64,000 bases of DNA, from the NCBI GenBank assembly GCA_903926565.1, contig CAIYJU010000011.1, forward strand, positions 28,355 to 92,354, written 5' to 3'. Below are positions 11,642 to 64,000 of the stretch, piece after piece. Positions within the stretch are counted from its first letter, which is position 1. Every line of letters begins with the position of its first letter. A model generated the notes under the pieces. That model searched no databases, was not told the DNA's origin, and worked only from the letters and a program-made list of their open reading frames with translations. This stretch comes from an uncultured Bacteroidales bacterium (GTDB lineage: Bacteria; Bacteroidota; Bacteroidia; Bacteroidales; FEN-979). The translations under genes were made by a program, and so were the position numbers.

Positions 11642-11663
11642 TATGCCGGAAATTATTGTAAAA

Positions 11664-11671: not shown

Positions 11672-11715
11672 GACAATAATGAGCCCTGAACAGCCTGAAG
11701 AACCAATTTTTTATG

Positions 11716-11723
11716 TATGTTTG
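11716..11723 (+). promoter_or_regulatory. Bacteroidota -7 element TATGTTTG of the M14 peptidase gene
   Basis: TATGTTTG fits TAnnTTTG. It lies downstream of the ORF-track start (11679) and 21 bp before the ATG at 11745, which is one reason to prefer the later start. Confidence 0.5.
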
Positions 11724-11744
11724 ACCGCTAAGTCAAATTTTATT

Positions 11745-13529
11745 ATGAAAAGATTTTACATGTTCATCCCTGCAATGCTGTGCATCCAGTTCGCAATGGC
11801 GCAAACCACAGATTGGCAAACTTATTATGAAAAATCCGGGAAGATTGAAACACCAGGGTACCAGGAAACAATTGACTATTGCAATCAGCTTGCGTCAGGA
11901 TCAAAGATGATCACCTTTACCTCTTTTGGCAAAAGTGCTCAGGGCAGGGAACTTCCTTTGCTGATCCTTGACAGGGAGGGCCTGAGTAATCCGCAGGCTA
12001 TTCACGCTTCCGGCCGGACAATTGTACTCATTCAGGCATGCATCCATGCCGGCGAGTGCGAGGGAAAAGATGCCGGATTGATGCTTTTCAGGGATTTGGC
12101 TGTTAAAAATATCAATTCCAAAATATTGAAAAACGTGTCCATCCTCTTTATACCTATTTTTAACACGGATGGTCATGAACGATTCGGTCCGTTCAACCGC
12201 ATCAACCAGAATGGACCAAAAGAGATGGGTTGGCGAACCACTGCCAATAATCTCAACCTCAACCGTGATTACCTGAAGGCCGACTCCCCTGAAATGCAGG
12301 CCTGGTTAAGGATGTTCGACAAATGGATGCCCGGTTTCTTTATAGATTCGCATACCACCGACGGGGCAGATTACCAGTACGTCCTTACTTATCTGATGGA
12401 AATTTATGGCGACATGGATGCGGGTTTGACTGGCTGGACAAAGAACACCTTTGTTCAGCAACTGGAGACACATCTGAATGCTGGCGGATACCCGGTATTC
12501 CCCTATGTTGGATTCCGCAACTGGCATGATCCGCGCAGCGGTCTTATTACGGAAGTTGCGCCACCCATGCTTTCCCAGGGTTATACCGCCCTCAGGAACA
12601 GGCCGGGTCTTCTGATCGAAACACACATGCTCAAACCATATCCTCTGCGGGTAAATGCTACGTATGAATGCATGCTAGCCACACTTGAGATCCTTAGCAA
12701 CGAGTCGAAAAACCTGAACTCACTGATATTTAAAGCAGATCAGTTTGTCTGCAGTGATTCCTTTTTAAACACTCCCTTCCCTCTCCGGTTTGAAACCAGT
12801 TTGAAAGACAGTGCCATGGTCAGCTTCCTCGGGGTGGAATACAATAATGTCAAAAGTGATCTGAGCGGAGGCGACTGGTTTCAGTACAGCAAAATTCCGG
12901 CAACACTGAACATCCCCTATTTTTCCACTGCCAACCCGTCTGTGTCTGTTAAGCTGCCTTACGCTTATATCATTCCGGCAGAGTGGACCACCGTGATTGA
13001 CCGATTAAAAACACATGGAATCAAGGTTTCAGAACTTCCCAGGACCACCAAAATAAAGGTCAAAACCTGCCGTTTCAAAAATCCAAAATGGCAGCAGAAT
13101 CCTTATGAAGGACGTCATCCAATGACAAATATCGAATTCGACGATATTGAAGAGACCCGCTCCTACTCTGCCGGCTCTGTCGTGGTTGAAGTAATGCAGC
13201 AGGCCGGGCGCATCATTCCTCACATTTTGGAGCCAAACGGCAACGGATCTTTTGTGTATTGGGGATTCTTCGATGCCACCTTTGAGCAGAAAGAGTATGG
13301 AGAGTCTTATGTAATTGAGACAATGGCCAGAGATATGCTGGCCCGGGATCCGGCATTAAAACAGGAATTTGAGTTGAAGAAAGCCGGGGATACTGCTTTT
13401 GCAAAAAACCCTCAACTGATCCTTAACTGGTTTTACAACAAATCACCCTATTTTGACAACCGAAAAGGAATCTATCCGATAGGCAAAATATTCGATCTGA
13501 AAGTACTTGAATCGATCAGATCAGAATGA
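11745..13529 (+). CDS. Secreted M14-family zinc carboxypeptidase-like protein
   Basis: I chose the ATG at 11745 because it gives a clean signal peptide (MKRFYMFIPAMLCIQFAMAQ) and lies after a promoter element; the track start adds 22 residues of non-signal sequence. The M14 zinc-binding pair HxxE is seen in CIHAGECEGKDAG, and the third zinc histidine fits FFIDSHTTDGADYQY. The Arg/Asn substrate-binding region is likely NNLNLNRDYLKA. About 594 residues, much longer than a bare catalytic domain, with a C-terminal part of unknown role (about residues 340-594). It should trim peptides outside the cytoplasm. The gene converges on the selenium operon, with 14 bp of overlap at the stops. Confidence 0.88.
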   Translation: MKRFYMFIPAMLCIQFAMAQTTDWQTYYEKSGKIETPGYQETIDYCNQLASGSKMITFTSFGKSAQGRELPLLILDREGLSNPQAIHASGRTIVLIQACIHAGECEGKDAGLMLFRDLAVKNINSKILKNVSILFIPIFNTDGHERFGPFNRINQNGPKEMGWRTTANNLNLNRDYLKADSPEMQAWLRMFDKWMPGFFIDSHTTDGADYQYVLTYLMEIYGDMDAGLTGWTKNTFVQQLETHLNAGGYPVFPYVGFRNWHDPRSGLITEVAPPMLSQGYTALRNRPGLLIETHMLKPYPLRVNATYECMLATLEILSNESKNLNSLIFKADQFVCSDSFLNTPFPLRFETSLKDSAMVSFLGVEYNNVKSDLSGGDWFQYSKIPATLNIPYFSTANPSVSVKLPYAYIIPAEWTTVIDRLKTHGIKVSELPRTTKIKVKTCRFKNPKWQQNPYEGRHPMTNIEFDDIEETRSYSAGSVVVEVMQQAGRIIPHILEPNGNGSFVYWGFFDATFEQKEYGESYVIETMARDMLARDPALKQEFELKKAGDTAFAKNPQLILNWFYNKSPYFDNRKGIYPIGKIFDLKVLESIRSE

Positions 13530-15720
13530 GTGGTTCTCCATTTTCGATTCTGCCAATAATGGCTGCAACCGTATTGCCGGCATCATGAAGACGGTTTACA
13601 AATTCCGATGCCTGTTCCGCTGGCATTGAAACAAGCAATCCACCTGATGTTTGGGCATCTGCAAGGATGAATTTCAACAGCTCCGGCGTGTTTTCACTCC
13701 ATTTAACAAATTTCCCGGCATACTCCAGGTTGTTTCGGGTCCCTCCGGGAATAGCCCCTGCCGCCGCATACTCCCAGGCAGCGTCAAAGACAGGGATCTG
13801 ATCCGACAATAAAACAGCCTGCACCCCGGCCCCGCAAACCATCTCCTTTAAATGCCCCAGCAATCCAAACCCGGTGACATCGGTACATGCGTTCACTGAA
13901 AATTCAACCATGATTTCTGCTGCTGTCTTGTTCAGCTCAGCCATTACATGCATTACCAGGTCAATGGATACAGAATCAGCCAGACCCCGCTTGATGGCAG
14001 TGGTTATGATGCCGGTGCCAAGAGGTTTGGTCAGGATCAGCACATCGCCCGGTTTGGCCGTGGAATTCCTCAGAATTTTTCCCGGATGAACCACACCTGT
14101 CACGACCAGGCCGAATTTTGGTTCACTGTCTTCAATACTATGCCCCCCGATAACCTGAATACCCGCCTCTGCAACTTTATCATTCGCCCCCTTCAGAATT
14201 TGCTGCAACACTTCGATGGGTAATTTCCTGTCGGGAAAGCCTACAATGCTGAGCGCAAAAAGCGGTTTCCCTCCCATGGCATATACGTCACTTAAGGCAT
14301 TTGCTGCTGAGATTGCTCCATACATGTAAGGATCATCCACAACGGGAGGTATAAAATCCACGGTTTGAACGATTGCGGTATGCTCATCGATCATATAAAC
14401 TGCTGCATCATCTGCAGTTTCATGGCCGACAAGAATTGCAGGATTATTTTTGCCCGGAATCTCCTTTAAGATCTTTTCCAGCAGCTGGGGCCTGATCTTA
14501 CATGCACATCCGAGGGCATGGGTATATTCTGTCAGGCGGAAATCCGATTTTGCATTTTGCTGTCTGCTGTCTGAATTTTGAATTCCCCCTTTCAGCCTCC
14601 GATACGCTTCAACAATAATGGGTATTGTACGTTCGATTTCCTCCGTTGTGGTCATCCTTCCAACTGAAAAACGGACGGTTCCGATGGCAAAATCCCTGGG
14701 AACATGCATCGCGGAAAGCACACCCGACAGTTCGGCCTGATCTGCATGACATGCAGCGCCAGCAGATGCAGCCACACCTTTTATCTCATCCAGCAATGCG
14801 GAGGCTTCAACTCCGGGAAATCCCAGGCTCAGGGTATTTGGCAATCTCAGGCTGGTGTGTCCATTCAGGCGAACTTCAGGTATCTCAAGGCGGATGCCTT
14901 CATGCAACCGATCACGCAGGTCACCCATGGCATTGAAAGAAGCTGCGTTTAACAGTTGCTGTGCCACCTCTGCTGCTTTTCCCAATCCGACGATTTCAAG
15001 GACGTTTTCAGTTCCGGCGCGAAGGTTTGATTCATGGTCTGCGCCATGCATCAACTTCTCCAGTTTCACTCCTCTTCGGATATATAGGGCACCGACTCCT
15101 TTCGGAGCATACAATTTATGGCCGGCAACAGAAAGCAGATCAACATGAAGCTGCTCCACATCAACAGGGATTTTCCCAACCGACTGTGCCGCATCCGAAT
15201 GAAAAAGAATCCCATGGGCCCTGGCAATTTTGCCAATTGCCTCAACAGGCTGAACCGAACCAGTTTCATTGTTTGCGTGCATGACCGTGATCAAAATTGT
15301 TCCCGGGGTTATTGCAGAGCGGATATCTTCCGGATCAACAACTCCTGATTCATCTACAGGTATTAGTGTAATTTCAAAGCCGTTTTTTTCCAGGTACGTA
15401 CAAACTTCTCCAACGGCAGGGTGTTCAATGCAGGAGGTAATGATATGGTTTCCTTTTGACTTGTTGGCCAGCGCTACCCCTTTGATAGCGAAATTATTTG
15501 ATTCCGTCCCCCCGCTCGTAAAAACGATTTCGTCAGACCTGGCATTCAGCAGGGAAGCAACCTGCCTGCGGGCGTTTTCAACAGCAATTTTTGATTGTAC
15601 TCCATAGCTGTGAATGCTGGACGGATTCCCGTAATGCTGCTCAAGAAACGGGCGAATAGCTTCAACTACACGTGGATCAACCGGTGTTGTGGCATTATAA
15701 TCAAGGTATATCGTTTCCAT
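13516..15720 (-). CDS. selD: Fused cysteine desulfurase (NifS-like) and selenophosphate synthase (SelD)
   Basis: Residues 1-375 are a PLP-dependent cysteine desulfurase: PLP lysine K202 in SVAGHKLYAPKG and active-site Cys324 in SAGAACHAD. A short polar linker (GGIQNSDSRQQNAKSD) leads to SelD from about residue 395, with the catalytic pair Cys405/Lys408 in GCACKI (E. coli Cys17/Lys20), DDAAVY, and the Gly-rich core TGFGLLGHLKEM. The first half should free selenium from selenocysteine or sulfur from cysteine, and the second makes selenophosphate from selenide and ATP. I chose METIYLDYNATTP at 15720 over the longer ORF start. It overlaps the end of selU by 20 bp, its likely customer. The SelD key residue is Cys, not Sec. 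Confidence 0.95.
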   Translation of the reverse strand: METIYLDYNATTPVDPRVVEAIRPFLEQHYGNPSSIHSYGVQSKIAVENARRQVASLLNARSDEIVFTSGGTESNNFAIKGVALANKSKGNHIITSCIEHPAVGEVCTYLEKNGFEITLIPVDESGVVDPEDIRSAITPGTILITVMHANNETGSVQPVEAIGKIARAHGILFHSDAAQSVGKIPVDVEQLHVDLLSVAGHKLYAPKGVGALYIRRGVKLEKLMHGADHESNLRAGTENVLEIVGLGKAAEVAQQLLNAASFNAMGDLRDRLHEGIRLEIPEVRLNGHTSLRLPNTLSLGFPGVEASALLDEIKGVAASAGAACHADQAELSGVLSAMHVPRDFAIGTVRFSVGRMTTTEEIERTIPIIVEAYRRLKGGIQNSDSRQQNAKSDFRLTEYTHALGCACKIRPQLLEKILKEIPGKNNPAILVGHETADDAAVYMIDEHTAIVQTVDFIPPVVDDPYMYGAISAANALSDVYAMGGKPLFALSIVGFPDRKLPIEVLQQILKGANDKVAEAGIQVIGGHSIEDSEPKFGLVVTGVVHPGKILRNSTAKPGDVLILTKPLGTGIITTAIKRGLADSVSIDLVMHVMAELNKTAAEIMVEFSVNACTDVTGFGLLGHLKEMVCGAGVQAVLLSDQIPVFDAAWEYAAAGAIPGGTRNNLEYAGKFVKWSENTPELLKFILADAQTSGGLLVSMPAEQASEFVNRLHDAGNTVAAIIGRIENGEPLILI

Positions 15721-16750
15721 ACTCGCAGTATTTATAAGCAAATTCAATGATTCGTCCGGCTTCTTCAACCAGGTTCTCCCCGAAAATGGGAAACTCATGT
15801 ATTTTTTTACTCTTTCTTCTGGCCATCGAAAAGAGGTATGCCTTGTCGTAATAAGAGAGTGCGATCGCGGCTACCTCTGCAAATCGTTTGTTCTCCAGGG
15901 CCGAAAGCGCTTCTTTGGTCCTGCTGCCACCCAACCGTTCTCCTATCCTGGTGATCGCATCAGCCAGCGACTGAGGATCAAATCCGGCATACTCACGAAC
16001 CATGCGGTTAATACGAACCGTGATATCCATTTCAATTTTTATCAGCATACCATTGCTGATGTGCTCAACTGTCGGATCAGGCAGCGTAACCCGGCCAATC
16101 ATCCTGCTTTCGTCTTCCACCCATACCAATCCGGAGAGGTCAAGTTCCGACCACCTTGAGTACAGACTATTTTCAAATTGTTCGTTGGACGGTTGAGGCG
16201 GTTGTCCCAATGCACCGAAAACAGAGCCTTTATGGCTGGCCAGCCCTTCAAGGTCAATTACCTGTTCTCCCTTTTCTTTAATTGCATGGAGCAGGTCTGT
16301 TTTCCCGCTCCCGGTAAATCCGCCTAAAACGACAATATTTGCCTTCGCAGAAAGGCTCTCGCGGATAAATCTCCTGTATGCCTTATAACCACCATTTAAC
16401 AATTCTACATCATAACCTGCTTTATTGAAAACTTCAGCCATCATTGCACTGCGCAAACCACCCCTCCAGCAATGAAGCAAAATATTTCCCGGCACAGCTA
16501 TCTTTCGCAGAGTTTTGAGATACCAACCGGTTTTAGACAATCCGAAATCCAATCCTTTCTGTATGGCATCTTCTCTTCCGGACTGAACATATAAAGTTCC
16601 GACCACAGCCCGCTCGGCATCGGTGAAAAGCGGGATATTACATGCCCCGGGGATGTGACCCTGGGCAAATTCTCCCGGCGACCGGACATCAATAACAGGA
16701 AATTGTTTCACCTTATTCAGAAACTGCGGTGGGTCAATGGGTCGGATCAT
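15701..16750 (-). CDS. selU: tRNA 2-selenouridine synthase SelU (MnmH)
   Basis: SelU replaces sulfur by selenium in the wobble 2-thiouridine of tRNA-Lys, -Glu and -Gln, using selenophosphate. The N-terminal rhodanese domain (residues 1-125) has FPVIDVRSPGEFAQGHIPGA and the catalytic loop HCWRGGLRSAMM. A P-loop (GGFTGSGKTDLLHAI) follows at about residue 140. About 349 residues, normal for the family. I chose MIRPIDPPQF at 16750 because the candidate promoter at 16772-16779 lies inside the longer ORF. It overlaps the downstream NifS-SelD gene by 20 bp, so donor and user enzymes are coupled. Confidence 0.95.
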   Translation of the reverse strand: MIRPIDPPQFLNKVKQFPVIDVRSPGEFAQGHIPGACNIPLFTDAERAVVGTLYVQSGREDAIQKGLDFGLSKTGWYLKTLRKIAVPGNILLHCWRGGLRSAMMAEVFNKAGYDVELLNGGYKAYRRFIRESLSAKANIVVLGGFTGSGKTDLLHAIKEKGEQVIDLEGLASHKGSVFGALGQPPQPSNEQFENSLYSRWSELDLSGLVWVEDESRMIGRVTLPDPTVEHISNGMLIKIEMDITVRINRMVREYAGFDPQSLADAITRIGERLGGSRTKEALSALENKRFAEVAAIALSYYDKAYLFSMARRKSKKIHEFPIFGENLVEEAGRIIEFAYKYCEYGNDIP

Positions 16751-16771
16751 CGTACGGCATGGAGTATGCGT

Positions 16772-16779
16772 CAAATTTA
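16772..16779 (-). promoter_or_regulatory. Bacteroidota -7 element TAAATTTG of the selU-selD operon
   Basis: TAAATTTG on the minus strand, with a TTG 20 bp upstream (16800-16802) as a possible -33. It lies 21 bp before the chosen selU start. It shares a short intergenic region with the purF promoter facing the other way. Confidence 0.55.
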
Positions 16780-16820
16780 GAGTGGTTTTCTCATCTAAAC
16801 AAGGGATCATTAATAATTTA

Positions 16821-16828
16821 TACCTTTG
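16821..16828 (+). promoter_or_regulatory. Bacteroidota -7 element TACCTTTG of purF
   Basis: TACCTTTG fits TAnnTTTG and ends 23 bp before the ATG at 16852. It falls inside the extended ORF-track frame, which supports the later start for purF. No clear -33 TTG. Confidence 0.55.
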
Positions 16829-16851
16829 CAGTCCAAATAAAACTCATTCCA

Positions 16852-18753
16852 ATGAGCGATTCCATCCATCATGAATGCGGTATAGCAATGGTCCGCCTGC
16901 TTAAGCCACTTGAATTCTACCTGGCCAAGTACGGAACTGCATTCTATGGTTTACATAAACTGCATCTCCTGATGCAAAAACAGCATAACCGCGGACAGGA
17001 CGGGGCAGGAATAGCAAGTATCAAATTTGACCTGGAACCCGGGACCAGGTTCATCAACCGTATCAGATCGGTTGACAACGCCCCGATCCAGGACATTTTC
17101 AACAAAGTGAGCCTGGGCATTAAAGACATTGAGGAAAGGCACCCACAGCGGCTGAATGATGTAGAATGGTTGAAACGTAAGGTAGACATGCTTGGCGAAC
17201 TGTACCTGGGCCATTTGCGCTATGGGACATATGGAAAAAACGGAATTCTCAGCATCCATCCATTTATCAGGGAAAACAACTGGATGACCAAAAACCTTGT
17301 GGTTGCAGGTAATTTCAATCTCACCAACGTTGATGAGCTTTTCGAAAAACTGATCGACCTGGGGCAATATCCTGTTGAAACCAGCGACACGATAACAATC
17401 CTTGAAAAAATGGGTCATTTCCTTGACGAGGAAAATGAAGACTTATACCAGAAATTCAAAAAGAAAGGCTTTCCAAAAAGGGATATCACATTTCAAATTG
17501 CCAGGCACCTAAACATTCAGAAAATCCTTCGCGGAGCAGCAAAAACATGGGACGGAGGATATGTCATTGCCGGTATGTTCGGGCATGGAGATGCCTTTGT
17601 GATGCGTGACCCATCTGGTATCCGGCCGGCTTATTATTACCAGGATGAAGAAATTGTGGTCGTTGCCTCAGAGCGGCCAGTCATTCAGACTGCCTTGAAT
17701 GTGTCGTTCGAGACTGTTCACGAATTGTCACCAGGGCATGCGCTGATTATCAAGAAAGATGGCAAGGTAACTGAAAAAGAGTTCTCCAGGCCCCTGGAAA
17801 GGAAGCCATGCTCGTTCGAGCGGATTTACTTCTCACGAGGCACAGATAAAGAGATCTACCGCGAACGCAAAAATCTTGGGAGGCTGCTCGCTCCGGCTAT
17901 CCTGAAGGCCATCGACCATGATGTGGAACATTCCGTATTTTCGTATATTCCAAATACCGCCATCGATGCCTATTACGGATTGATTGAAGAGATGGATGCT
18001 TTTTGTGACAGGATCAAAATTGACCGGATTCTGGGTGCCGGTAAAACACTTAATGAAGAGAAGCTGAAAGCCATCTTTCAATTGAAACCCCGCGCTGAAA
18101 AAGTTGCAGTGAAGGATGTTAAATTGCGCACCTTCATTACCCGTGATTCCCAGCGGGACGACCTAGCTGCCCATGTTTATGATATCACTTACGGCAGCAT
18201 CAAACCCGGGGTTGACAATCTTGTTGTACTGGATGATTCCATTGTAAGAGGAACGACATTAAAACAAAGCATACTGCGGATCCTTGACCGGCTTGGGCCC
18301 AGGAAAATTGTGATTGCCTCCTCTGCTCCTCAAATCCGCTATCCCGACTGCTACGGTATCGACATGGCCAAGATTACCGATTTTATTGCATTTAAGGCAG
18401 CCATCGAATTGCTTAAAGAGACACACCAGGAGCACATAATCAACGAAGTTTATATCAAGTCAAAAGCACAGGAAAAACTCCCAAAGGAGAAAATCATCAA
18501 CTATGTAACAGAGATATACAAACCTTTTACTGCTGAACAAATTTCTCAGAAAATTTCCGAACTCTTAACACCTCCTTCCTGCAAAGCCAGCGTTCAGGTC
18601 GTTTATCAAACAATTGACGATTTGCATGAAGCCATTCCAAACCATACCGGTGACTGGTATTTTACCGGAAATTATCCAACTCCCGGTGGGAACAAGGTCG
18701 TTAACCGTGCTTTTATCAACTATATAGAGGGAAAAAATGTCAGGGCATATTAA
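16852..18753 (+). CDS. purF: Amidophosphoribosyltransferase, long Bacteroidota form (PurF-like)
   Basis: PurF makes phosphoribosylamine from PRPP and glutamine, the first step of purine synthesis. The start MSDSIHHECGIAMVRL leaves Cys9 as the Ntn nucleophile after removal of an eight-residue propeptide. KQHNRGQDGAGI belongs to the glutaminase domain and VVLDDSIVRGTTLKQ is the PRPP-binding loop. At 633 residues it is about 130-160 longer than E. coli or Bacillus PurF, with inserts in the glutaminase domain and a longer C-terminus. Similar long proteins occur in Bacteroides as far as I recall, sometimes beside a normal-length PurF, so it could be a paralogue with a shifted role. It converges on the HIT gene with a 4-bp overlap. 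Confidence 0.82.
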   Translation: MSDSIHHECGIAMVRLLKPLEFYLAKYGTAFYGLHKLHLLMQKQHNRGQDGAGIASIKFDLEPGTRFINRIRSVDNAPIQDIFNKVSLGIKDIEERHPQRLNDVEWLKRKVDMLGELYLGHLRYGTYGKNGILSIHPFIRENNWMTKNLVVAGNFNLTNVDELFEKLIDLGQYPVETSDTITILEKMGHFLDEENEDLYQKFKKKGFPKRDITFQIARHLNIQKILRGAAKTWDGGYVIAGMFGHGDAFVMRDPSGIRPAYYYQDEEIVVVASERPVIQTALNVSFETVHELSPGHALIIKKDGKVTEKEFSRPLERKPCSFERIYFSRGTDKEIYRERKNLGRLLAPAILKAIDHDVEHSVFSYIPNTAIDAYYGLIEEMDAFCDRIKIDRILGAGKTLNEEKLKAIFQLKPRAEKVAVKDVKLRTFITRDSQRDDLAAHVYDITYGSIKPGVDNLVVLDDSIVRGTTLKQSILRILDRLGPRKIVIASSAPQIRYPDCYGIDMAKITDFIAFKAAIELLKETHQEHIINEVYIKSKAQEKLPKEKIINYVTEIYKPFTAEQISQKISELLTPPSCKASVQVVYQTIDDLHEAIPNHTGDWYFTGNYPTPGGNKVVNRAFINYIEGKNVRAY

Positions 18754-54248: not shown

Positions 54249-55460
54249 TCAGGATTCGCGGCGTATGATCATTGCTGAGGTTACGCCCCCACCACCGCAG
54301 ATGGATGCAATCGCATGTGTTTTTCCAAGTCGTTTGAGGGCATGGTAGCCGGTAACCAGAATCCGGGCACCGCTGATGCCGGTGGGATGGCCCAGCGCAA
54401 TTGAACCGCCATGGACGTTAAGTTTCGACCGGTCCCATTGCAGAATCTTCTCATTTGACAACACTTGTATTGCAAACGCTTCATTGACCTCCATGATATC
54501 CATCTCTTCCATGGTCATGCCTGCATTTTTCAAAGCAGCAGGTATGGAAAACGCAGGGCCCTCGCCCATAACTGAAGGATCAACGGCAAGCTGGGCATAA
54601 GAGACAACGGAGAAGAGTGGTTTCAGGCCAAGTTCCGTGGCTTTTTTCCGGTGGGTAACCACAAGGGCAACAGCTCCGTCGCTCAACCCGCAGGCGTTGC
54701 CGGCCGTTACTGTTCCGTTTTTCCGGAAGGCCGGTTTCAGGGCAGCCATCTTATCGATGCTGAGTTCATGACGGATGGTTTCGTCGCAGATGAATAAGAC
54801 AGGTGAAGGAGGCGAGTCGCTACCCACAGGATAATTACCTGAGGGTAAGGGGACCGGGACAATCTCATCGTTGAACCATCCGTTTCTCTGAGCTGCCGAG
54901 GCCTTCAGGTGGCTGGTGACCGCATATTCATCCTGATCCCGGCGCGAGATGGCATGTTTATCATACAGATTTTCAGCAGTATCGCCCATGCCTTGTCCGA
55001 TGAGTGGATCGATGCTGTCACTCCAGCCATCCTCGAGGATTTTGTTTCCCATTTTAAAACCATCCCAGCGGGCGCCTTTCAGCAGGTATGGAATGGAACT
55101 CATGCTGTCGAATCCGCCGGCTATCACGACATCTGCTTCGCCGAGGCGGATTGCCTGCGCGGCCATTGCGACCGATCGCATCCCGGAAGGGCAAGCCATA
55201 TTTAATGTAACAGCGGGAACAGAAACGGAAACGCCGCCGCGCACTGCCGCAGTCCTGGCCGGGTTCGGGCCATTTCCTGCCTGCCGGCAATTGCCAAGAA
55301 TGACCTCATCCACCTGGTCACCACGAAGACCGGCACGGCTGAGCGCTTCACGGATGACCACGGCTCCCAGGTCGTAAGCCGGAATATCTTTCAACGTTCC
55401 CCCGAAGCGGCCCATGGCCGTACGGCAGGCGGCAACTACAACGATATCATTTAGTTCCAT
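54249..55460 (-). CDS. Thiolase (acetyl-CoA acetyltransferase type)
   Basis: 403 residues with all three active-site marks: Cys90 in [11 protein letters not shown], His358 in [17 protein letters not shown] and Cys388 in [11 protein letters not shown]. It can split acetoacetyl-CoA or another 3-ketoacyl-CoA with CoA, or run in reverse. It is the last gene of the acyl-CoA operon, 12 bp after the SDR gene, and would finish the route from glutaryl- or crotonyl-CoA to acetyl-CoA. Confidence 0.95.
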
Positions 55461-55472
55461 CGGTAAATCATA

Positions 55473-56216
55473 TTAGATATATTGCCCTCCGTCAACCTTG
55501 ATCACTTCACCGGTAATATGCCGTGCCAGGTCAGAGCAAAGAAAAGCTGCCAGGTTGGCAATATCCTCCGGCTGACCAAGCCGTTTCAGAACGATCTCAT
55601 CCAGGGCGGCAGTACGGACTATCTCATCCGCATTCTTCATCATTTCAGTCTCGATCAGGCCGGGGGCGATGGCATTGACATTGACATTGTATTTACCCAG
55701 TTCTTTGGCAACTGTCTTTGTCAGGCCAATGATGCCGGCTTTGGCAGCAGCATAGTTTGCCTGCCCGAATTTTCCACGGAGCCCGTTGATGGAGGTGATG
55801 TTGACGATCTTGCCAGATTGCTGCTCCCGGAACAGCGGGGCGACCGCCCTGATAAAATTAAAATATCCTTTCAGATTGACATTGATGACCTCATCCCATT
55901 GTTCTTCGCTCATTTTCCAGATGACCCCGTCGCGGTTGATCCCTGCATTATTCACAAGGATATCGATCCTGGTAAAAAACTCTACCACACTCTGCATCGC
56001 AGCATTGGCCTCTTTAAAGTCGGCAACATCCGCTTTGATAAAAACAGCAATGCCTCCAACCTCTTCAATCCTGCTAAGGATTCCATCGGCATCAACCTTG
56101 CTTCTGCAGTCAATGATTGCAACCCGGGCACCGCAAAGTGCCATTTCAAGTGCTATCGCTGCGCCAATACCGGAAGCACCTCCGGTCACCACGGCGACTT
56201 TATTTTTAAGATCCAT
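55473..56216 (-). CDS. Short-chain dehydrogenase/reductase, FabG or acetoacetyl-CoA reductase type
   Basis: 247 residues of the classical SDR family: cofactor motif VTGGASGIGAAIA (residues 10-22), NNAG (89-92), and catalytic Ser142, Tyr155, Lys159 in TSINGLRGKFGQANYAAAKA. It interconverts a 3-oxoacyl and 3-hydroxyacyl thioester; with the thiolase next door a CoA substrate is likely. The Asp36 at the end of the second strand (IIDCRS) favours NAD(H). It starts 3 bp after the FAD subunit's stop. Confidence 0.9.
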   Translation of the reverse strand: MDLKNKVAVVTGGASGIGAAIALEMALCGARVAIIDCRSKVDADGILSRIEEVGGIAVFIKADVADFKEANAAMQSVVEFFTRIDILVNNAGINRDGVIWKMSEEQWDEVINVNLKGYFNFIRAVAPLFREQQSGKIVNITSINGLRGKFGQANYAAAKAGIIGLTKTVAKELGKYNVNVNAIAPGLIETEMMKNADEIVRTAALDEIVLKRLGQPEDIANLAAFLCSDLARHITGEVIKVDGGQYI

Positions 56217-56219: not shown

Positions 56220-57155
56220 TCAAATTAGTTGTAACTCTTTAAAACTCCTGTTCAGAAACACACCGACCATCTCTTTTCTGTAGGTCCGTGAATAGGTATC
56301 GTTATCAACAATCCTGGTAGTTGAGACTGCCCGGCTGATCAAGTACGGAAGATCATCGGTTACCGAGCCATCCACAATCACAGGTTGTGCATGAACACCG
56401 CCCAGCACAATCCTGATCCTTCCATCATTATGAAATGAAACTGCCGATGTAAGGGAGGTGAAATCAAGGGTTTCCCGTTTACGGAGTTTTTTATAGATTG
56501 TTCTGCAATCCTCGCCGAGCGGGAGAAGAATGGCGTTGATGATCGCTGTTTTGCTTAACCGGCGTGGGTTTATCCCATCACCAGTATAGATTATTTCGAG
56601 GGGTATCACCACAACGCCGTCATTATCTGCAACTTCGATTGATGCATTCAAACCAATCAGGGCAACAGCCGTATCCGATACGAATTTTGAAAAACAATTT
56701 TTATTCCCACCGGTGGCCAGGCATATCGGTCCGTCACATTTAAGGCAATGGCCTGCCGCATCCCTCCACCATTCACTTTGATTGTAGAATGAGCAACGGT
56801 TTTCACAAAGAAGGTTTCCGCCGAGGGTTGCTGTTTTTCTGATTATGGGAGATGCCACTGACTTTGCAGCTTCAGCCATAACAGGAAAATAACGGGTAAC
56901 GAGCGGGTGGACAATCAACTCTTCGAGGGATGTTAAAGCGCCAATCCTGACAAATGAATCATTGATGGCAATTCCCTTTAAATCCGAAATTTCAGAAATG
57001 TCAATCAACAGAGACGCTTCGTCATTACCCTGGAACTTATTCACCATCACATCCGTTCCGCCAGCCAGGTAGCGAAAATTACCGGTGTGTCCGGTGGCAC
57101 AGGAAATTGCCTGTGTGACGGATGCTGCTTTGATATAGGTTTTCGGTGAAGTCAT
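56220..57155 (-). CDS. FAD subunit of a molybdenum hydroxylase with 4-hydroxybenzoyl-CoA reductase-like [4Fe-4S] insert
   Basis: 311 residues of the CoxM/HcrB family. FAD-binding blocks are YLAGGTDVMVNK (residues 29-40) and KTATLGGNLL (107-116). Between residues 118 and 163 is an insert with cysteines 121, 137, 145 and 154 (NRCSFYNQSEWW; GHCLK; GPICLA; NKNCFSK), plus Cys140. The 16/8/9 spacing is that of the [4Fe-4S] cluster of 4-hydroxybenzoyl-CoA reductase beta subunit as I remember it, and ordinary xanthine dehydrogenase FAD subunits lack it. The gene abuts the Mo/[2Fe-2S] gene directly. The extra cluster would suit a low-potential reductive reaction; the actual substrate is inferred, not shown. 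Confidence 0.9.
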   Translation of the reverse strand: MTSPKTYIKAASVTQAISCATGHTGNFRYLAGGTDVMVNKFQGNDEASLLIDISEISDLKGIAINDSFVRIGALTSLEELIVHPLVTRYFPVMAEAAKSVASPIIRKTATLGGNLLCENRCSFYNQSEWWRDAAGHCLKCDGPICLATGGNKNCFSKFVSDTAVALIGLNASIEVADNDGVVVIPLEIIYTGDGINPRRLSKTAIINAILLPLGEDCRTIYKKLRKRETLDFTSLTSAVSFHNDGRIRIVLGGVHAQPVIVDGSVTDDLPYLISRAVSTTRIVDNDTYSRTYRKEMVGVFLNRSFKELQLI

Positions 57156-59975
57156 CTATACACCATTTTTTTTCTCTGCTGATTTGTGCTCTTTCATTTT
57201 TGTGAGGATATCCTCCGCATTGATTGGCAACCTCGTGATTCTCACGCCAACTGCGTTGAACACGGCATTGGCGATGGCCGGGATAACGGGATGTATTGCA
57301 CCTTCTCCGGCTTCCTTGGCCCCGAACGGACCTTCCGGGTCAATGGTTTCAATGATATTTGCATGAATTTCAGGGGTATCAAGCGATGTTGGAATTTTGT
57401 AATCCAGGAAGTTATTGTTGAATAAGAGTCCCTTATGGTACTTCATCTGTTCACTGATCGCCTGACCTGTGCCCATGTGCCATGAGCCTTCAAGCTGCCC
57501 TTCGACTGCCAGCGGATTCAATGCCTTTCCGCAATCATGGGCGCCCCAGATATCCAAAACTTTCACATAACCGGTTTCCAAATCAACCTCAACTTCAGCC
57601 ACACAAGCTCCGAATGAATAGGACGGACTGAGTCCTGCCCCGGCACCCTTAAAGTCACCACCAAGTTTCGGGGAGATGTATTTCCCACTGACACAGACTG
57701 CGCCCCGGTTAGAGGTCAACAAATCAACAACTTCCATCCAGGACAGATCAATTGCTCTGTCATTGCTAAAGACCCGGTCGTCATAAAAGTTGAATTCTTC
57801 AGAGCTCAAATCATGCCTTCGAATCAGTGCATTTACAATCTCTGTTTTCAGATTTTCGGCAGCATCTTTTGCAGCATTGCCAGCCATGAAGGTCACCCGG
57901 CTTGAATAGCTGCCGAAATCGACCGGTGTGAGCAGGGTATCTGCGGCGAGAACAAATATCTTATCCATTCCTATTCCAAGGACTTCGGATATGATGATGG
58001 CCAGCATCGTGTCGCTGCCCTGGCCGATGTCGCTGGAGCCGGAAGTCACAAGGACCCTCCCGTCAAAATCAAGTTTCAGGTGTACCACAGACTGCGGCAG
58101 ATCATTCCAGATTATGGGCAGTGCACTGCCACTGATAAAAAACCCGCAGGCGACGCCCAGGCCTCTGCCCATCTGCATCTTTCCGAAGCGGTTTTTCCAT
58201 TGCGACTGTTCCATCACCTTCTCAAGGGATTCACGGCTGCCGTTGGAGGTGATGCGATAGTGCCCAACGGTCAATGTGTCTGAATCGAGAAAATTTTTCA
58301 TCCGCATGTCACAAGGATCCATGTGGATGCGGGATGCCAGGTCATCGATAAGCGATTCCACTGCAAAACGAGAATTCACAGCACCATGTCCGCGCATTGC
58401 GCCACATTGCGGTTTGTTGGTATAAACACGGTATGTCCGGAACCCGAAATTATCCAGTTTATACGGCGCCTGCAGTAAAACCCCGTTGTAGTATGAAGTC
58501 ACAACGCCAAAGCTTCCGTAAGCCCCGCCATCGATTGCGATGTCGGCATCCAGTACTTTTAGAATTCCATCATTTGAAATCCCCAATTCCACGGTCATCC
58601 TGGAAGGATGCCGTCCATGGTTGGTTAGGAAAACCTCTTCACGGTTCAGGCGAACCCTGACTGGTCTTCCGGTTTTACGGGCGATGTGAGCCACAATAAT
58701 TTCATGTGGAAAAGGATCGCTCTTTCCTCCAAATCCACCTCCGAGGTAAGGTTTAATCACACGTACCCGGCTGAGCGGGACTTCAAGAACCCTGGCAAGT
58801 GCACGATGCAGGTAATGAGGCACCTGGGTAGCCGTGGTGATTGTAAGTCCGTTCTCATCCCAGGAGGCTGTGGCGGCATGGGGTTCGGTAAATCCATGGT
58901 TTACCCCGTCAAATTCGAAAAACATTTTAGATGTAAGATCCGCATCACGCAGGCCCTGCAGCTGATCTCCAAACCTCAATTCCGCTTTTTTATGGATGTT
59001 GTTGTTGAATTTCCCATAGTCATGGATCTTTTCATCCATACCTGCGTCATTCAATGAATCATCGATGGTCAAAAACGCTTTGACGGGAGCGTATTTCACC
59101 TTGATGAGCTTACATGCTGCGGCTGCGGTTTCCTCGCTGTCGGCGGCCACGGCAGCAACTATTTCGCCAATATACCGGACTTTGTCAACAGCCATGGCTG
59201 TTTCATCCTGTGAAACCGGAAGCACGCCAAATTTCACTGGAAGCTCCTTCCCGGTTGCGATATAATGTACCCCCGGCAAAGCCAGGGCTTCCTGAATGTC
59301 AATTCCCTCTATCCTGGCATGGGAATAGGTTGAGCGCAGGAATTTGCAGTGCAGCTGATTTTTTGAAACAATGTCATCAGCATATTCAGCAGCACCTCTG
59401 ACTTTCTTCTCCGCTTCGATGTAAGGTCGCCGGGTTCCGACAGCCCCTCTCAGGGCAGGTTTGACTCCATCTGATTCTTTTTCGGGGAATTTGATGGCAG
59501 AGGATTCCATGACATATTCCGCAACTGCTTCGATTACTTTTTTATAGCCGGTACATCTGCACAGATTTCCCGATAGTCCTTCCCTGATCTGGTGAATCAA
59601 ACCGGGGATCCCTTCTTTGCTGATGAGCGTTTTGGAAAGGCTAAGCGCGGTCATCACCATCCCGGGTGTACAGAATCCGCATTGGACAGCACCTTTTTCA
59701 ACAAATTTTTCCTGCAACAGGTGAAGTCTGCCATTTTGGGAAAGCGCTTCGATCGTGGTTATTTCGGCGTTGTCGCAACGCATGGCCGGAGTAATACAAC
59801 TAAGCACAGCTTTGTCGTTGACCAAAACCGTACAGGCGCCGCAGCTGCCCTGTTCACAACCAACTTTTGTTCCGGTCAGCCCTGCTTTTTCGCGAATTAC
59901 ATGCGACAACATCTCATGGTCACCGACCAGGAGATCATATTTTCTGCCATTTATTTTTAAGCTGATTTGCTGCAT
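57156..59975 (-). CDS. Molybdenum hydroxylase, fused [2Fe-2S] and molybdopterin subunits
   Basis: 939 residues. Residues 1-155 are the two [2Fe-2S] domains: Cys40, 45, 48, 60 (GCEQGSCGACTVLV) and Cys99, 102, 139, 141 (VQCGFCTPGMVM; GNLCRCTGYKKVIEAV). From about residue 180 the molybdopterin domains begin (VGTRRPYIEAEKKVRGAAEY), with the Gly-rich KPYLGGGFGGKSDP and the catalytic Glu region GAKEAGEGAIHPVIPAI near the C-terminus. In most relatives these are two chains; here they are one. It pairs with the FAD subunit encoded next. Annotated by homology it would be called xanthine dehydrogenase, but its partner and operon point to an aromatic or acyl-CoA substrate. Confidence 0.93.
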   Translation of the reverse strand: MQQISLKINGRKYDLLVGDHEMLSHVIREKAGLTGTKVGCEQGSCGACTVLVNDKAVLSCITPAMRCDNAEITTIEALSQNGRLHLLQEKFVEKGAVQCGFCTPGMVMTALSLSKTLISKEGIPGLIHQIREGLSGNLCRCTGYKKVIEAVAEYVMESSAIKFPEKESDGVKPALRGAVGTRRPYIEAEKKVRGAAEYADDIVSKNQLHCKFLRSTYSHARIEGIDIQEALALPGVHYIATGKELPVKFGVLPVSQDETAMAVDKVRYIGEIVAAVAADSEETAAAACKLIKVKYAPVKAFLTIDDSLNDAGMDEKIHDYGKFNNNIHKKAELRFGDQLQGLRDADLTSKMFFEFDGVNHGFTEPHAATASWDENGLTITTATQVPHYLHRALARVLEVPLSRVRVIKPYLGGGFGGKSDPFPHEIIVAHIARKTGRPVRVRLNREEVFLTNHGRHPSRMTVELGISNDGILKVLDADIAIDGGAYGSFGVVTSYYNGVLLQAPYKLDNFGFRTYRVYTNKPQCGAMRGHGAVNSRFAVESLIDDLASRIHMDPCDMRMKNFLDSDTLTVGHYRITSNGSRESLEKVMEQSQWKNRFGKMQMGRGLGVACGFFISGSALPIIWNDLPQSVVHLKLDFDGRVLVTSGSSDIGQGSDTMLAIIISEVLGIGMDKIFVLAADTLLTPVDFGSYSSRVTFMAGNAAKDAAENLKTEIVNALIRRHDLSSEEFNFYDDRVFSNDRAIDLSWMEVVDLLTSNRGAVCVSGKYISPKLGGDFKGAGAGLSPSYSFGACVAEVEVDLETGYVKVLDIWGAHDCGKALNPLAVEGQLEGSWHMGTGQAISEQMKYHKGLLFNNNFLDYKIPTSLDTPEIHANIIETIDPEGPFGAKEAGEGAIHPVIPAIANAVFNAVGVRITRLPINAEDILTKMKEHKSAEKKNGV

Positions 59976-60008: not shown

Positions 60009-61187
60009 TTATTCAAACGCATTTTCACCTGTGATGTCATTCCCGGTGATGAGCAAATGGATATCGTGGGTTCCCTCATAGGTAATCACTGACTCCAGGT
60101 TCATCATATGGCGCATCATCGGGAAATCGCCGGTGATTCCCATGGCACCCAGGATCTGGCGGGATTCCCTGGCAACATCGAGTGCCATCTTTACATTGTT
60201 CCTTTTGCACATCGAGATCTGCGCCGGAGTGGCCCGGTCTTCATTTCGGAGGACCCCGACACGCCAGGCAAGCAACTGGGCCTTGGTGATTTCTGTAAGC
60301 ATTTCAGCCAGTTTCTTTTGGGTTAACTGGAATCCGGCAATCGGTTTTCCGAATTGTTTGCGCTCTTTGGAATATTGCAGTGCACAGTCGAAGCAGTCCA
60401 TGGCAGCACCAATCACACCCCAGGCAATGCCATATCTTGCGGAGCTAAGGCAGCTTAGCGGCCCTTTCAACCCTTTGACGCCTGGCAAAATGTTCTCTTT
60501 TGGGACTCTGACATCATCAAATACCAGTTCGCCGGTAGAGGAGGAACGCAGCGACCACTTTTTAAGAGTTTCCGGAGTTGTAAAACCTTCCATGCCCCGC
60601 TCTGCGATCAATCCTTTCACTGTGCCTGTTTCATCTTTGGCCCAAACAACAGCAATATCGCAGATGGGAGCATTGGTAATCCACATTTTCGAACCGTTCA
60701 GCAAATAATGGTCACCCTGATCCGTAAACTTACAGAGCATGCCTCCAGGGTCTGATCCATGGTTCGGTTCCGTAAGGCCAAAGGCACCGATCATCTCGCC
60801 TGAAGCCAGTTTTGGCAGGTATTTCCGACGCTGTTCTTCCGTTCCATACTTATAGATCGGGTACATCACCAGGGAAGATTGCACTGAAGCCATGGAACGG
60901 ATGCCTGAATCACCTCTTTCCAGTTCCTGCATGATCAGACCATACGAAATCTGGTCCATACCGGCACCCCCGTATTCCACCGGAATGTAGGGGCCGAAAG
61001 CGCCGATTTCACCGAGTTCCTTCACCAGGTGGCGCGGGAAAGCATGGTGCTGATTGGCCTCATCGATGATGGGGATCACGGCCCTGTTCACCCAGTCCCT
61101 GATTGTTCGGCGGATCAGCTTATGTTCGTCGGTTAAGAGTTCATCGACCTGGTAATAGTCGGGGGATTTGTATCGGATTGTTGACAT
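60009..61187 (-). CDS. gcdH: Glutaryl-CoA dehydrogenase-like acyl-CoA dehydrogenase
   Basis: 392 residues of the acyl-CoA dehydrogenase family. The GCDH hallmarks are kept: Arg97 in SGIRSMASVQSSLVMYPIY (human Arg94, which binds the glutaryl carboxylate), FGLTEPNHGSDPGGM, and the catalytic base Glu371 in TYEGTHDIHLLITGNDITG. It should oxidise and probably decarboxylate glutaryl-CoA to crotonyl-CoA, using FAD and an electron transfer flavoprotein not seen here. The Mo hydroxylase starts 33 bp downstream and the BRO-N gene ends 2 bp upstream. Confidence 0.9.
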   Translation of the reverse strand: MSTIRYKSPDYYQVDELLTDEHKLIRRTIRDWVNRAVIPIIDEANQHHAFPRHLVKELGEIGAFGPYIPVEYGGAGMDQISYGLIMQELERGDSGIRSMASVQSSLVMYPIYKYGTEEQRRKYLPKLASGEMIGAFGLTEPNHGSDPGGMLCKFTDQGDHYLLNGSKMWITNAPICDIAVVWAKDETGTVKGLIAERGMEGFTTPETLKKWSLRSSSTGELVFDDVRVPKENILPGVKGLKGPLSCLSSARYGIAWGVIGAAMDCFDCALQYSKERKQFGKPIAGFQLTQKKLAEMLTEITKAQLLAWRVGVLRNEDRATPAQISMCKRNNVKMALDVARESRQILGAMGITGDFPMMRHMMNLESVITYEGTHDIHLLITGNDITGENAFE

Positions 61188-61189: not shown

Positions 61190-62026
61190 TTATGGTTTTA
61201 TCTCTTTGGGTGATTTCACAACCGCATTGGCATTTAATGCAGTTACAACTCTTTTTCCTGTTTTCTCCTCCAGTTCCTTTCTTGCAACTTTGGCTACATT
61301 ACCACCTTGTTGCGCAACTTTTTTACTTTCCTCGAATGTTCCGGGATTCACTGCTTCTGAAATATCTTTGGTGGAGGCTTCGGCCAGCATATTCAAAATC
61401 AATTCTGTATTGGTCATGTTGTCCCGCAAATTTTCCTTTTTTAATCCTTTAAGAATTTTGTACTCTTTGGTTGTTTTATCGGCCCAGGCTTTGGTAATAA
61501 TATCAGTAAGAGTGGCAAACTGACCGCCTTCTTTTAGTCCTCTTTTTTTCCATTCATCAGTAAGTTCTTTTCGTATTTCAATGCTTTTTAGACGTTGGTT
61601 GATCCAATTTTCTGAATATCCTAATTGCAAATACTGCTCTAACGCCTTATCAATGCTAAGTTCAGGGTCTTGCATTTCATCTAACCTTTCACTGGCAACC
61701 TGGGCCAACCATAGTTTAAATGGTTCTGCCCTGGGAGAAGGTACTGACTGGATTAACCGGAAGAGTTGCTCAGTATCAGCAACATCAGTTTTATATGTTT
61801 TGCCATCCGTGGACTTGATCTTCAGTTGTCCGATTTTTTCGGACAACTGACTACCTTCCTTATTAAGTTTGGTTTTCAGATCGCTCCAGTATTTCCTGGG
61901 TCGCTCACTGTTTGTTAAAACCTTAATTACATCAATAATTGAGAAGTACCATTTCTCTTTTGCGCTGTCCCAGATAGCACGGACTCTCTTATCTTCAAAT
62001 ACTTTTATATTATCCTGTTCTTTCAT
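61190..62026 (-). CDS. BRO-N domain protein (DinD/antirepressor-like)
   Basis: 278 residues. The N-terminal 110 residues match the BRO-N fold (KVFEDKRVRAIWDSAKEKWY, FSIIDVIKVLTNSERPRKYW, then LFRLIQSVPSPRAEPFKLWL). The C-terminal part resembles the DinD/Bro-type proteins of bacteria (KSIEIRKELTDEWKKRGLKE, ending in a charged helix). Such proteins are found in phages, baculoviruses and mobile regions, and DinD is a damage-inducible inhibitor of RecA in E. coli. It ends 2 bp before gcdH inside a metabolic operon, so it looks like an intruder. Confidence 0.85.
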   Translation of the reverse strand: MKEQDNIKVFEDKRVRAIWDSAKEKWYFSIIDVIKVLTNSERPRKYWSDLKTKLNKEGSQLSEKIGQLKIKSTDGKTYKTDVADTEQLFRLIQSVPSPRAEPFKLWLAQVASERLDEMQDPELSIDKALEQYLQLGYSENWINQRLKSIEIRKELTDEWKKRGLKEGGQFATLTDIITKAWADKTTKEYKILKGLKKENLRDNMTNTELILNMLAEASTKDISEAVNPGTFEESKKVAQQGGNVAKVARKELEEKTGKRVVTALNANAVVKSPKEIKP

Positions 62027-62112: not shown

Positions 62113-64000
62113 CTAAGGATAATATAGTTTGTCATAGTTATTCTCCCACCCCGGTAATTTACCCTGCGGGGCGAGGTTAACCGGTGGATTCTGGCCTCCG
62201 ATATTGAGTAACCGCAGTAATGCCGTGGAAATATAGGGATTTTTTTCGGGATTGAAGGTTTCACCACATTCTTTCGTCAGCTGATTATCGTTGCACCCTT
62301 CAGCCAGTGCATTCTTCTTTTGAAGGTTATACAGTGCAACTGCATAAGGAACAGCATACTTCTGTTTCAGCCGGGCCAGTTCGAATGCTTTCTCAAGTAA
62401 TTCATACTCATCTTCACTCACACCATTTGATAATCCGAGTTCATAGGCCCTTGTCGCTGTCAATCCCTGGAGGAATAGTTCGTCAATAAGGGATTCACCA
62501 AAACCGAGGCGCACCAGCTCCTGAACAGCACCAAAGCCACCCAGGATCCCGTATTCGATCTCCGGCTGGTTGTAATTTTTCTTGACACGGAACACATTTT
62601 TCCGTTTAAGTGAGTCGAATTCAACCCCGTGATGCAACAGGTCGAACCGCTGGTTCAGGAAATAGGTAAATTCTGCTCCTCCGCCCCATTTCTCACCGAA
62701 AACACCGATGGTCCAAACCGGCATCTCCTGTATAAACCGGAACAGCTTCATCCCGGCTTTGGTGAAATAAGAGGCTTCTTCCTCTCCAAGGAAAGAATAG
62801 CCGGTTTTTGCATCGAACCATCCCTTGTTGAACTGCCTGGCATCGGCTCCGAGCATGCGCATTCCTTTGCCGGAAGCTGTAAATAACAATGCACCCAGCG
62901 CACCTTTCTCAAACAGGCTGACAGAAACCCCGATTGCATGGTCAAGCTGATCGAGGGTATTGCGGTTCCATACATTCCCACGGAGGGGATTGTCGAAAAT
63001 AATGGAGGCAACACGTTCTTTTTTTGAAGGATGGATATAACGGAGGTCATTGTAATAAATATCCATCTCTCCTGTTGTGAAATTACGCTGGCTTACCGGA
63101 GTGCCGTATATCCGGCCATAACCCAGGAGATTTGACCAGCCTCTTTTTTTCATTGTAAGCAGAAGTACAGGAGTTCCTTTTCGTGGTCCGGTGATCCCAT
63201 CGACATCAAACAGCTCCACCCTGTCAGGGTTCTCTTTTGCAGATTTTTTAACCAGCGCCATGAAGGCCTCGATTCCGAAATGGTCGAGGAATTTGTCGAT
63301 GATTTCGCATAACCCATATTTGAACCGTAATCCCACCTTGGTGGAGGAGTCAATATCCGCAGCGGTTGCATACCCATCCTGGATGAGATCCAGGGCATAG
63401 AGCATGATGGGAATCACATATCTTCTGAAGGTTTTTCCGCCTTTATCATCAGATTCTGCAATCCGGATCAGTCCGCCTATACTTTTAATGGAGGATTCAC
63501 GATGGTCGAGTGCGGCAGCTTCTGACAAGGACCAGAAATCGAGATGACTAACCTCCGCTATTGCAACATAGTCTTTTGCTGCAGGATCATACACCCCGCT
63601 GATTTTCTCCTTGTTGTCAGCTCCTGTCCACTTGAAAAACCCCTCCTTCCCTTTTGAAGAAAGACCGATCCTTCCGGATTTCTCAAGATCTTCAATCCAT
63701 TGCGGGTAGTGCATTCCACCCTGGTTATAAACGCTTTTCAAGCGATCGTTTGCAGGCAATGCCTTTCCAAGATGTTTTGCACATTCGGTATAGGGCATGT
63801 GCCCGGTGCGGTCGAGCACCTGGAACGGGTTGGCTGTAAGCAATGCAAATACCTGTGGAAGTTCAACCAGGTCCTGCCCGGATTGAATATCCCATTGCAT
63901 GATGGCCGCCATTCCTTCGAAGATGGGGTCGGCCACATAGCCATGATGGTCGTTCCTCAGGGCAATGACTTTCTTTTCCAATACCTGCTCTGCAAAAGCA
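62113..64000 (-). CDS. 3-hydroxyacyl-CoA dehydrogenase/enoyl-CoA hydratase fusion, 5' end cut by window edge
   Basis: The frame is open to the window edge (AFAEQVLEKKV upstream of the track start, which is a TTG), so the N-terminal NAD-binding domain lies outside. Seen here are the 3HCDH C-terminal domains (NPFQVLDRTGHMPYTECAKH; GYATAADIDSSTKVGLRFKY) and, from about residue 310, a crotonase-like domain (RVASIIFDNPLRGNVWNRNT; GEKWGGGAEFTYFLNQRFDL; QPEIEYGILGGFGAVQELVRL). It should hydrate crotonyl-CoA and oxidise 3-hydroxybutyryl-CoA, linking gcdH and the thiolase. The oxyanion-hole loop (GKGMRMLGADARQF) is unusual but aligned. Confidence 0.88.
   Translation of the reverse strand, partial: AFAEQVLEKKVIALRNDHHGYVADPIFEGMAAIMQWDIQSGQDLVELPQVFALLTANPFQVLDRTGHMPYTECAKHLGKALPANDRLKSVYNQGGMHYPQWIEDLEKSGRIGLSSKGKEGFFKWTGADNKEKISGVYDPAAKDYVAIAEVSHLDFWSLSEAAALDHRESSIKSIGGLIRIAESDDKGGKTFRRYVIPIMLYALDLIQDGYATAADIDSSTKVGLRFKYGLCEIIDKFLDHFGIEAFMALVKKSAKENPDRVELFDVDGITGPRKGTPVLLLTMKKRGWSNLLGYGRIYGTPVSQRNFTTGEMDIYYNDLRYIHPSKKERVASIIFDNPLRGNVWNRNTLDQLDHAIGVSVSLFEKGALGALLFTASGKGMRMLGADARQFNKGWFDAKTGYSFLGEEEASYFTKAGMKLFRFIQEMPVWTIGVFGEKWGGGAEFTYFLNQRFDLLHHGVEFDSLKRKNVFRVKKNYNQPEIEYGILGGFGAVQELVRLGFGESLIDELFLQGLTATRAYELGLSNGVSEDEYELLEKAFELARLKQKYAVPYAVALYNLQKKNALAEGCNDNQLTKECGETFNPEKNPYISTALLRLLNIGGQNPPVNLAPQGKLPGWENNYDKLYYP

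Follow-up and report, generated by a model that had tools for sequence, protein, structure and literature searches.

Anaerobic degradation of aromatic rings through benzoyl-coenzyme A (benzoyl-CoA) is known chiefly from descriptions in Proteobacteria and in a small number of other anaerobes. In Thauera aromatica, 4-hydroxybenzoyl-CoA reductase (HBCR; HcrABC, PDB 1rm6/1sb3) is made of a molybdenum (Mo) subunit (HcrA, alpha), a flavin adenine dinucleotide (FAD) subunit (HcrB, beta) and a [2Fe-2S] subunit (HcrC, gamma), and four cysteines in an insert of HcrB hold an extra [4Fe-4S] cluster. This extra cluster is linked to inverted electron flow. Here we describe two adjacent genes on the minus strand of a 64,000-nt stretch of DNA (hereafter the window) from a lake-dwelling Bacteroidota bacterium, which ends where its contig, C11, ends. 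Judged from sequence, domain order, cysteine conservation, position in a tree of Mo chains, cluster membership and co-occurrence, the pair encodes a two-gene HBCR-like enzyme of the xanthine oxidase family, which most likely dehydroxylates 4-hydroxybenzoyl-CoA with electrons from ferredoxin.

With HcrABC the window enzyme shares the domain set (FAD, Mo, two [2Fe-2S]), the four-cysteine insert and its spacing, the tyrosine at HcrA position 326 and a class I benzoyl-CoA pathway in the surroundings. Whereas HcrABC is encoded by three genes, the window has two. Alpha carries gamma at its N-terminus, and all three parts are present. Identity to the Thauera enzyme is 42% for alpha and 35% for beta, and the host belongs to Bacteroidota instead of Proteobacteria. 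A [2Fe-2S] part followed by Mo domains in a single chain is also found in the selenium-dependent xanthine dehydrogenase (XDH) family and in the aldehyde oxidoreductase of Desulfovibrio (Mop), which has no FAD subunit. In PaoABC of Escherichia coli, an extra cysteine insert is located at the same place of the FAD subunit, but its length and spacing differ from those in the window, and the chains are separate.

Two chains related to HBCR

For both chains, the closest solved relative is Thauera HBCR (1rm6), by sequence as well as by fold. The two open reading frames (ORFs; Table 1) have the coordinates given in a first-pass annotation of this DNA. Residues 29-262 of the FAD subunit align with HcrB (1rm6_B; E 6.9e-38), and the stretch from Cys121 to Cys154 does so with zero gaps, RCSFYNQSEWW in the window facing RCTFYNQSEWW in Thauera. 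Cys121, Cys137, Cys145 and Cys154, which the annotation had singled out, pair with Cys122, Cys138, Cys146 and Cys155 of HcrB; the ligand numbers and the 16/8/9 spacing that it had given for HcrB are correct as read off this alignment. All four cysteines are invariant in the 81 FAD subunits compared (80 related loci and the window). A fifth cysteine of the insert, Cys140 (CLKC), is kept in 80 of these 81, and its place is taken by Tyr in Thauera HcrB. The AlphaFold model of the subunit has 1rm6_B as its best fold match (template modelling (TM) score 0.84).

The long chain has the Pfam domain order Fer2, Fer2_2, Ald_Xan_dh_C, MoCoBD_1 and MoCoBD_2. The eight [2Fe-2S] cysteines are all found at its N-terminus, and its Mo part is complete. 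HcrA aligns with the Mo part over the whole length (1rm6_A; E 1.4e-182, identity 41.9%), and the AlphaFold model of the long chain also matches 1rm6_A best (TM 0.84 by target). The joining of [2Fe-2S] and Mo subunits, proposed in the first-pass annotation, was found in every one of the 72 full-length long chains, the window's included, which are 917-941 amino acids (aa) long. Tyr496 is the counterpart of HcrA Tyr326, and this column is Tyr in 72/72 fused chains; the XDH-like chains compared, like two paralogues from the same genome, have A, V, N or R there.

Among curated NCBIfam models, the best one for the Mo part is HBCR alpha (TIGR03194, 828.5 bits), followed by XdhA (547.1 of 780 bits), and the best one for the FAD part is HBCR beta (TIGR03195, 204.7 bits), followed by XdhB (113.1 of 310 bits). 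The model for selenium-dependent xanthine dehydrogenase likewise scores lower on the long chain (TIGR03311, 467 vs 828 bits). In a maximum-likelihood tree of Mo chains, which includes a single characterised HcrA on a long branch and no nicotinate dehydrogenase, the window and 13 fused relatives form one clade (100/99). This clade joins Thauera HcrA at 100/100, or at 100/99 once the type 2 chains described below are added, and E. coli XdhA, PaoC, several plasmid XDH-like chains and the two same-genome paralogues fall outside. For a single clade of all fused chains, the approximately unbiased (AU) test gives p 0.229. Searches of plasmids for reference HBCRs of other phyla found none. Placement inside a characterised xanthine or nicotinate dehydrogenase clade, which the first-pass annotation had named for both chains as the outcome that would speak against it, did not occur in this tree of Mo chains, in which xanthine but not nicotinate dehydrogenases are represented.

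The least probable reading that we considered is an ordinary molybdenum hydroxylase, that is, a xanthine, nicotinate or aldehyde dehydrogenase misread owing to its [4Fe-4S] insert. Fused [2Fe-2S]-Mo chains also occur in the Desulfovibrio aldehyde oxidoreductase (1sij), and PaoB-type FAD subunits, too, carry cysteine inserts. However, the PaoB-type insert has a different length and spacing and no YNQSEWW motif, PaoC lies outside the HBCR clade, the scores favour HBCR, and the genomic context is benzoyl-CoA degradation. Xanthine, nicotinate and aldehyde dehydrogenases were dropped on scores, context and the tree, which has no nicotinate dehydrogenase among its rows: xanthine dehydrogenase on the XdhA and XdhB scores and the position outside the XDH-like rows, the PaoABC type on its insert and the position of PaoC.

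A benzoyl-CoA degradation cluster around the genes

The two genes lie at the end of a class I cluster for benzoyl-CoA degradation, which is split across contigs in its own assembly and intact in sister genomes. A search of the genome for BcrA/BcrD-type ATPases led to a pair on contig C32. On C32, the 3' part of bcrA is followed by bcrD; next come genes for an ADP-forming acyl-CoA synthetase and a PanE-like protein, then had, oah, dch and an HgdB-like gene. After two large proteins come an HgdC-like activase and a thiolase, and the run ends in the first part of a 3-hydroxyacyl-CoA dehydrogenase (HADH)/crotonase gene. Within this last gene, the ends of C32 and C11 overlap by 367 bp at 97.3% identity. 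The end of a third contig, C174, carries bcrC, bcrB (BcrB, 627.9 bits) and the 5' part of bcrA; its overlap with C32 is 142 bp at only 80% identity, and the contiguity of these two contigs is deduced from sister genomes.

In one sister genome, G022, the whole cluster lies on one contig in the order bcrC, bcrB, bcrA, bcrD, synthetase, panE-like, had, oah, dch, hgdB, hgdC, thiolase, HADH/crotonase, glutaryl-CoA-dehydrogenase-like gene, fused alpha-gamma, beta, short-chain dehydrogenase (SDR) and thiolase. Its BcrC (462.8 bits, cut-off 421.15), BcrB (638, cut-off 486.55), Had (447.8) and Oah (591.2) exceed the curated cut-offs; BcrD (307.5, cut-off 312.85) falls narrowly below, as do, by more, BcrA (430.7, cut-off 578) and Dch (222.8, cut-off 292.5). 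The same order is found in G013, G015 and G459, and G012 has the part from the acyl-CoA dehydrogenase onward. The Thauera-type class I set (bcrCBAD-dch-oah-had) is shared, with bcrC, bcrB, had and oah above the NCBIfam cut-offs and dch, bcrA and bcrD recognisable. Unlike the Thauera type, the Bacteroidota cluster is one operon that also holds the ADP-forming synthetase, the PanE-like gene, the HgdB/HgdC-like pair, the HADH-crotonase fusion and the HBCR genes. The synthetase is a candidate activator of the free acid.

The HgdB-like and HgdC-like pair (2-hydroxyacyl-CoA dehydratase/BcrB-like) is a constant part of the cluster in the window's family. On C32, its two members are split by the two large proteins, 1701 and 528 aa long and both secreted-looking; this interruption is not present in the sister clusters read.

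Distribution and co-occurrence

The first-pass annotation placed the enzyme in a Bacteroidota genome, which is true for the window and too narrow in scope, as the form recurs across many lineages of the phylum. A scan of a genome collection was evaluated for the best 80 loci, many of which are truncated by contig ends. All except one, from Thermoanaerobaculia, come from labelled Bacteroidota or from unlabelled uncultured-bacterium bins of Bacteroidota (79/80), and the lineages include Bacteroidales, Flavobacteriales, Saprospiraceae, Chitinophagaceae, Flammeovirgaceae and others. Of 396 genomes sampled evenly across the phylum, two contain a clear member: that of the window and G119, which consists of one contig, lies outside the window's class and has the gene pair adjoining bcrCBAD. 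Thus, the two-gene form is widespread but rare.

At least one of bcr, had, oah and dch lies within the fetched DNA at 31 of the 80 loci. In the window's family (43 genomes), the window-type FAD subunit occurs in 6 genomes and BcrB in 10, and all 6 are within the 10; the chance of this overlap is 210/6,096,454, or about 3e-5, by a hand calculation that ignores shared ancestry. This association bears on another alternative, that the enzyme dehydroxylates free phenolics and its cluster neighbourhood is incidental. Such enzymes exist, namely the urolithin C dehydroxylases of the xanthine oxidase family from the gut, which have been likened mechanistically to HBCR (PMC12771579). We regard this alternative as highly improbable, because the acyl-CoA operon is contiguous and kept in several genomes, and BcrB accompanies the subunit in 6/6 genomes (the urolithin enzymes were set apart without sequence comparison).

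Genes for Mo-cofactor maturation are frequent neighbours (MocA-like in 37/80 loci, XdhC-like in 36/80), and genes for 2-oxoacid:ferredoxin oxidoreductases are found as well (NifJ, pyruvate:ferredoxin oxidoreductase, in 12/80; KorAB in 7/80). These neighbours are compatible with a ferredoxin-fed Mo enzyme and at most suggestive of one. A gene for a hemerythrin-domain protein was matched in 40/80 loci, often a few bases 3' of hcrB; the protein could be a sensor of O2 or iron, or a protector of the enzyme. A further Mo enzyme, encoded by three genes, is present in genome G406; its [2Fe-2S] subunit begins with a Tat-like RRKFLK signal, and its FAD subunit bears a PaoB-type cysteine insert.

A second form without the insert

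The window-type FAD subunit is missing from four of the ten BcrB-containing genomes of the family (G002, G033, G036 and G029). In G029, the contig stops directly after the acyl-CoA dehydrogenase. In the other three, the HBCR slot beside the SDR gene holds a fused alpha-gamma chain and a FAD subunit of 295-307 aa (type 2, the window's form being type 1). The type 2 fused chain is about 935 aa long and about 41% identical to the window's. It surpasses the window on TIGR03194 (941 bits in G036 and 948 in G355, vs 828), keeps the Tyr326 column and belongs to the HcrA clade at 100/99, within which the tree does not resolve how the two types branch relative to Thauera HcrA. The type 2 FAD subunit resembles XdhB, and the [4Fe-4S] insert is wholly missing from it. 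XdhC and MocA genes often directly adjoin type 2 pairs, within the aromatic cluster. The 3.86-Mb one-contig genome G355 has type 2 within its bcr cluster, and G034 has it in a different neighbourhood. No genome of the window's family was found to contain both types.

In G028, a type 2 pair is accompanied by a class II benzoyl-CoA reductase instead of bcrCBAD: had/oah/dch are flanked by genes for a BamB homologue (1281 bits to 4z3w) and for BamC-F-like proteins. Because class II genes here replace the class I genes next to the same had/oah/dch cluster, the dearomatising module appears to be exchangeable. It is conceivable, and we suggest it tentatively, that one operon slot in the aromatic clusters of Bacteroidota is filled by either of two fused HBCRs, with or without the [4Fe-4S] insert.

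Proposed function

The NCBIfam ranking, the match to 1rm6, the Mo-chain tree and the benzoyl-CoA cluster support the proposal of the first-pass annotation, a two-gene HBCR-type enzyme that may act on a hydroxylated acyl-CoA, aromatic or otherwise. The binding of the cluster and the form of the cofactor are deduced, as are the path of the electrons, the substrate and the direction, for which the model is the Thauera enzyme (Unciuleac and colleagues 2004, as cited in PMC12771579). The enzyme unit would pair a fused gamma-alpha chain with a beta chain, one of each. The insert's [4Fe-4S] cluster would receive electrons from reduced ferredoxin and hand them on through FAD and the two [2Fe-2S] clusters to a Mo-cytosine-dinucleotide centre, which in its reduced state would take the para-hydroxyl off 4-hydroxybenzoyl-CoA to give benzoyl-CoA. 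The class I benzoyl-CoA reductase encoded in the same cluster may then dearomatise the ring. Hydration, oxidation and ring opening of the product by the dch, had and oah enzymes would follow, and the ring-opened product would be converted through glutaryl-CoA and crotonyl-CoA into acetyl-CoA.

Several observations weigh against this reading. All three HBCR parts miss the NCBIfam equivalog cut-offs (TIGR03193, 156.6 of 257.8 bits; TIGR03194, 828.5 of 994.55; TIGR03195, 204.7 of 404.55), and the window enzyme is for this reason regarded as a divergent branch. The [2Fe-2S] domain does not resemble HcrC in particular: 4zoh_C, 5y6q_A and 1t3q_A outscore 1rm6_C, which is fourth among the PDB matches. 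Without the insert columns, a tree of FAD subunits gives Thauera HcrB no resolved position. The AlphaFold models back both folds but not the cluster geometry; the insert is modelled with low confidence (predicted local distance difference test, pLDDT, about 46-62), and the [4Fe-4S] site is a predicted one. No bcr, had, oah or dch was seen in the fetched DNA of 49/80 loci, many of them contig-truncated. A search of the genome for a dedicated ligase for benzoate or 4-hydroxybenzoate gave no match above the cut-off; the best benzoate-CoA ligase match reaches 260 bits, below the 375 required. Taken together, the enzyme resembles HBCR in sequence, insert and context, departs from it in the number of chains and in the score cut-offs, and probably works like it.

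The substrate may instead be a different CoA thioester of a hydroxylated aromatic acid, for example 2- or 3-hydroxybenzoyl-CoA, reduced by the same type of dehydroxylase. The modest identity to HcrA and the scores below every equivalog cut-off leave room for this, and a second Mo-enzyme type fits the same slot, so that a substrate split between the types is possible. We consider it unlikely, because the insert motif, the ligand spacing and the Tyr326 position match the 4-hydroxybenzoyl-CoA enzyme, and known dehydroxylations of the xanthine oxidase type target a hydroxyl para to an electron-withdrawing carbonyl (PMC12771579).

Other features of the window

The acyl-CoA dehydrogenase and SDR genes that flank the pair are its neighbours in the sister clusters, too. 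The Bro-N domain ORF, between the acyl-CoA dehydrogenase and HADH/crotonase genes, is missing from the matching place in the sister clusters read and is therefore probably a recent insertion.

Table 1. Features of the window and of related loci discussed in the text.
Feature	Sequence	Position	Strand	Remarks
FAD/[4Fe-4S] subunit (HcrB-like, beta)	window	56220-57155	minus	311 aa; TIGR03195 204.7 bits; 1rm6_B best PDB and fold match
Insert Cys121 to Cys154 (RCSFYNQSEWW...)	window	56694-56795	minus	predicted ligands of extra [4Fe-4S] cluster; ungapped vs HcrB
Fused [2Fe-2S]-molybdopterin chain (HcrC-like + HcrA-like, gamma-alpha)	window	57156-59975	minus	939 aa; TIGR03194 828.5 bits; upstream end of pair at 59975
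Acyl-CoA dehydrogenase, glutaryl-CoA dehydrogenase-like (lower pathway)	window	60009-61187	minus	NF045552 271 bits, below cut-off
Bro-N domain ORF	window	61190-62026	minus	278 aa
HADH/crotonase fusion	window	62113-64000	minus	truncated by contig end, rest on C32; 367 bp contig overlap
SDR (FabG-like)	window	55473-56216	minus	candidate 3-hydroxyacyl-CoA dehydrogenase
Acetyl-CoA acyltransferase (thiolase)	window	54249-55460	minus	last gene of cluster; TIGR01930 432.9 bits, above cut-off
Type 2 pair	L156 (G036)	3840-7622
Type 2 pair	L157	10193-13897
Type 2 pair	L158	8682-12432
Type 2 pair	L159	16193-19917
Type 2 pair	L160	9156-12890
Type 2 pair	L161	5552-9252
Class II benzoyl-CoA reductase genes (BamB homologue, BamC-F-like)	L164 (G028)	68-7749
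HgdB-like + HgdC-like pair	L028	13241-15322
HgdB-like + HgdC-like pair	L036 (C32)	8031-9278, 16379-17176
Two large proteins	L036 (C32)	9653-16382
Hemerythrin-domain gene	L104	10944-11459		also in L048, L066, L112
Three-gene Mo enzyme	L130 (G406)	7191-11085

Significance

In the open-access papers searched, no description was found of an HBCR with fused alpha and gamma, or of complete benzoyl-CoA clusters with HBCR in Bacteroidota. What is new is the two-gene fusion, its recurrence across Bacteroidota alongside full benzoyl-CoA clusters, and the counterpart without an insert that takes the same slot. In a study of methanogenic phenol degradation, a putative HBCR of Cryptanaerobacter is given by two consecutive gene numbers (PMC5946492), and a two-gene form is thus possible elsewhere. 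Because every HBCR model scores below its cut-off, databases would leave such chains as generic molybdenum oxidoreductases, and in lakes, wetlands and groundwater the capacity is therefore probably under-counted. Operons that match in other respects exchange forms with and without the insert, which makes them a natural experiment on the role of the [4Fe-4S] cluster: if both types reduce the same substrate, the extra cluster would be dispensable for dehydroxylation.

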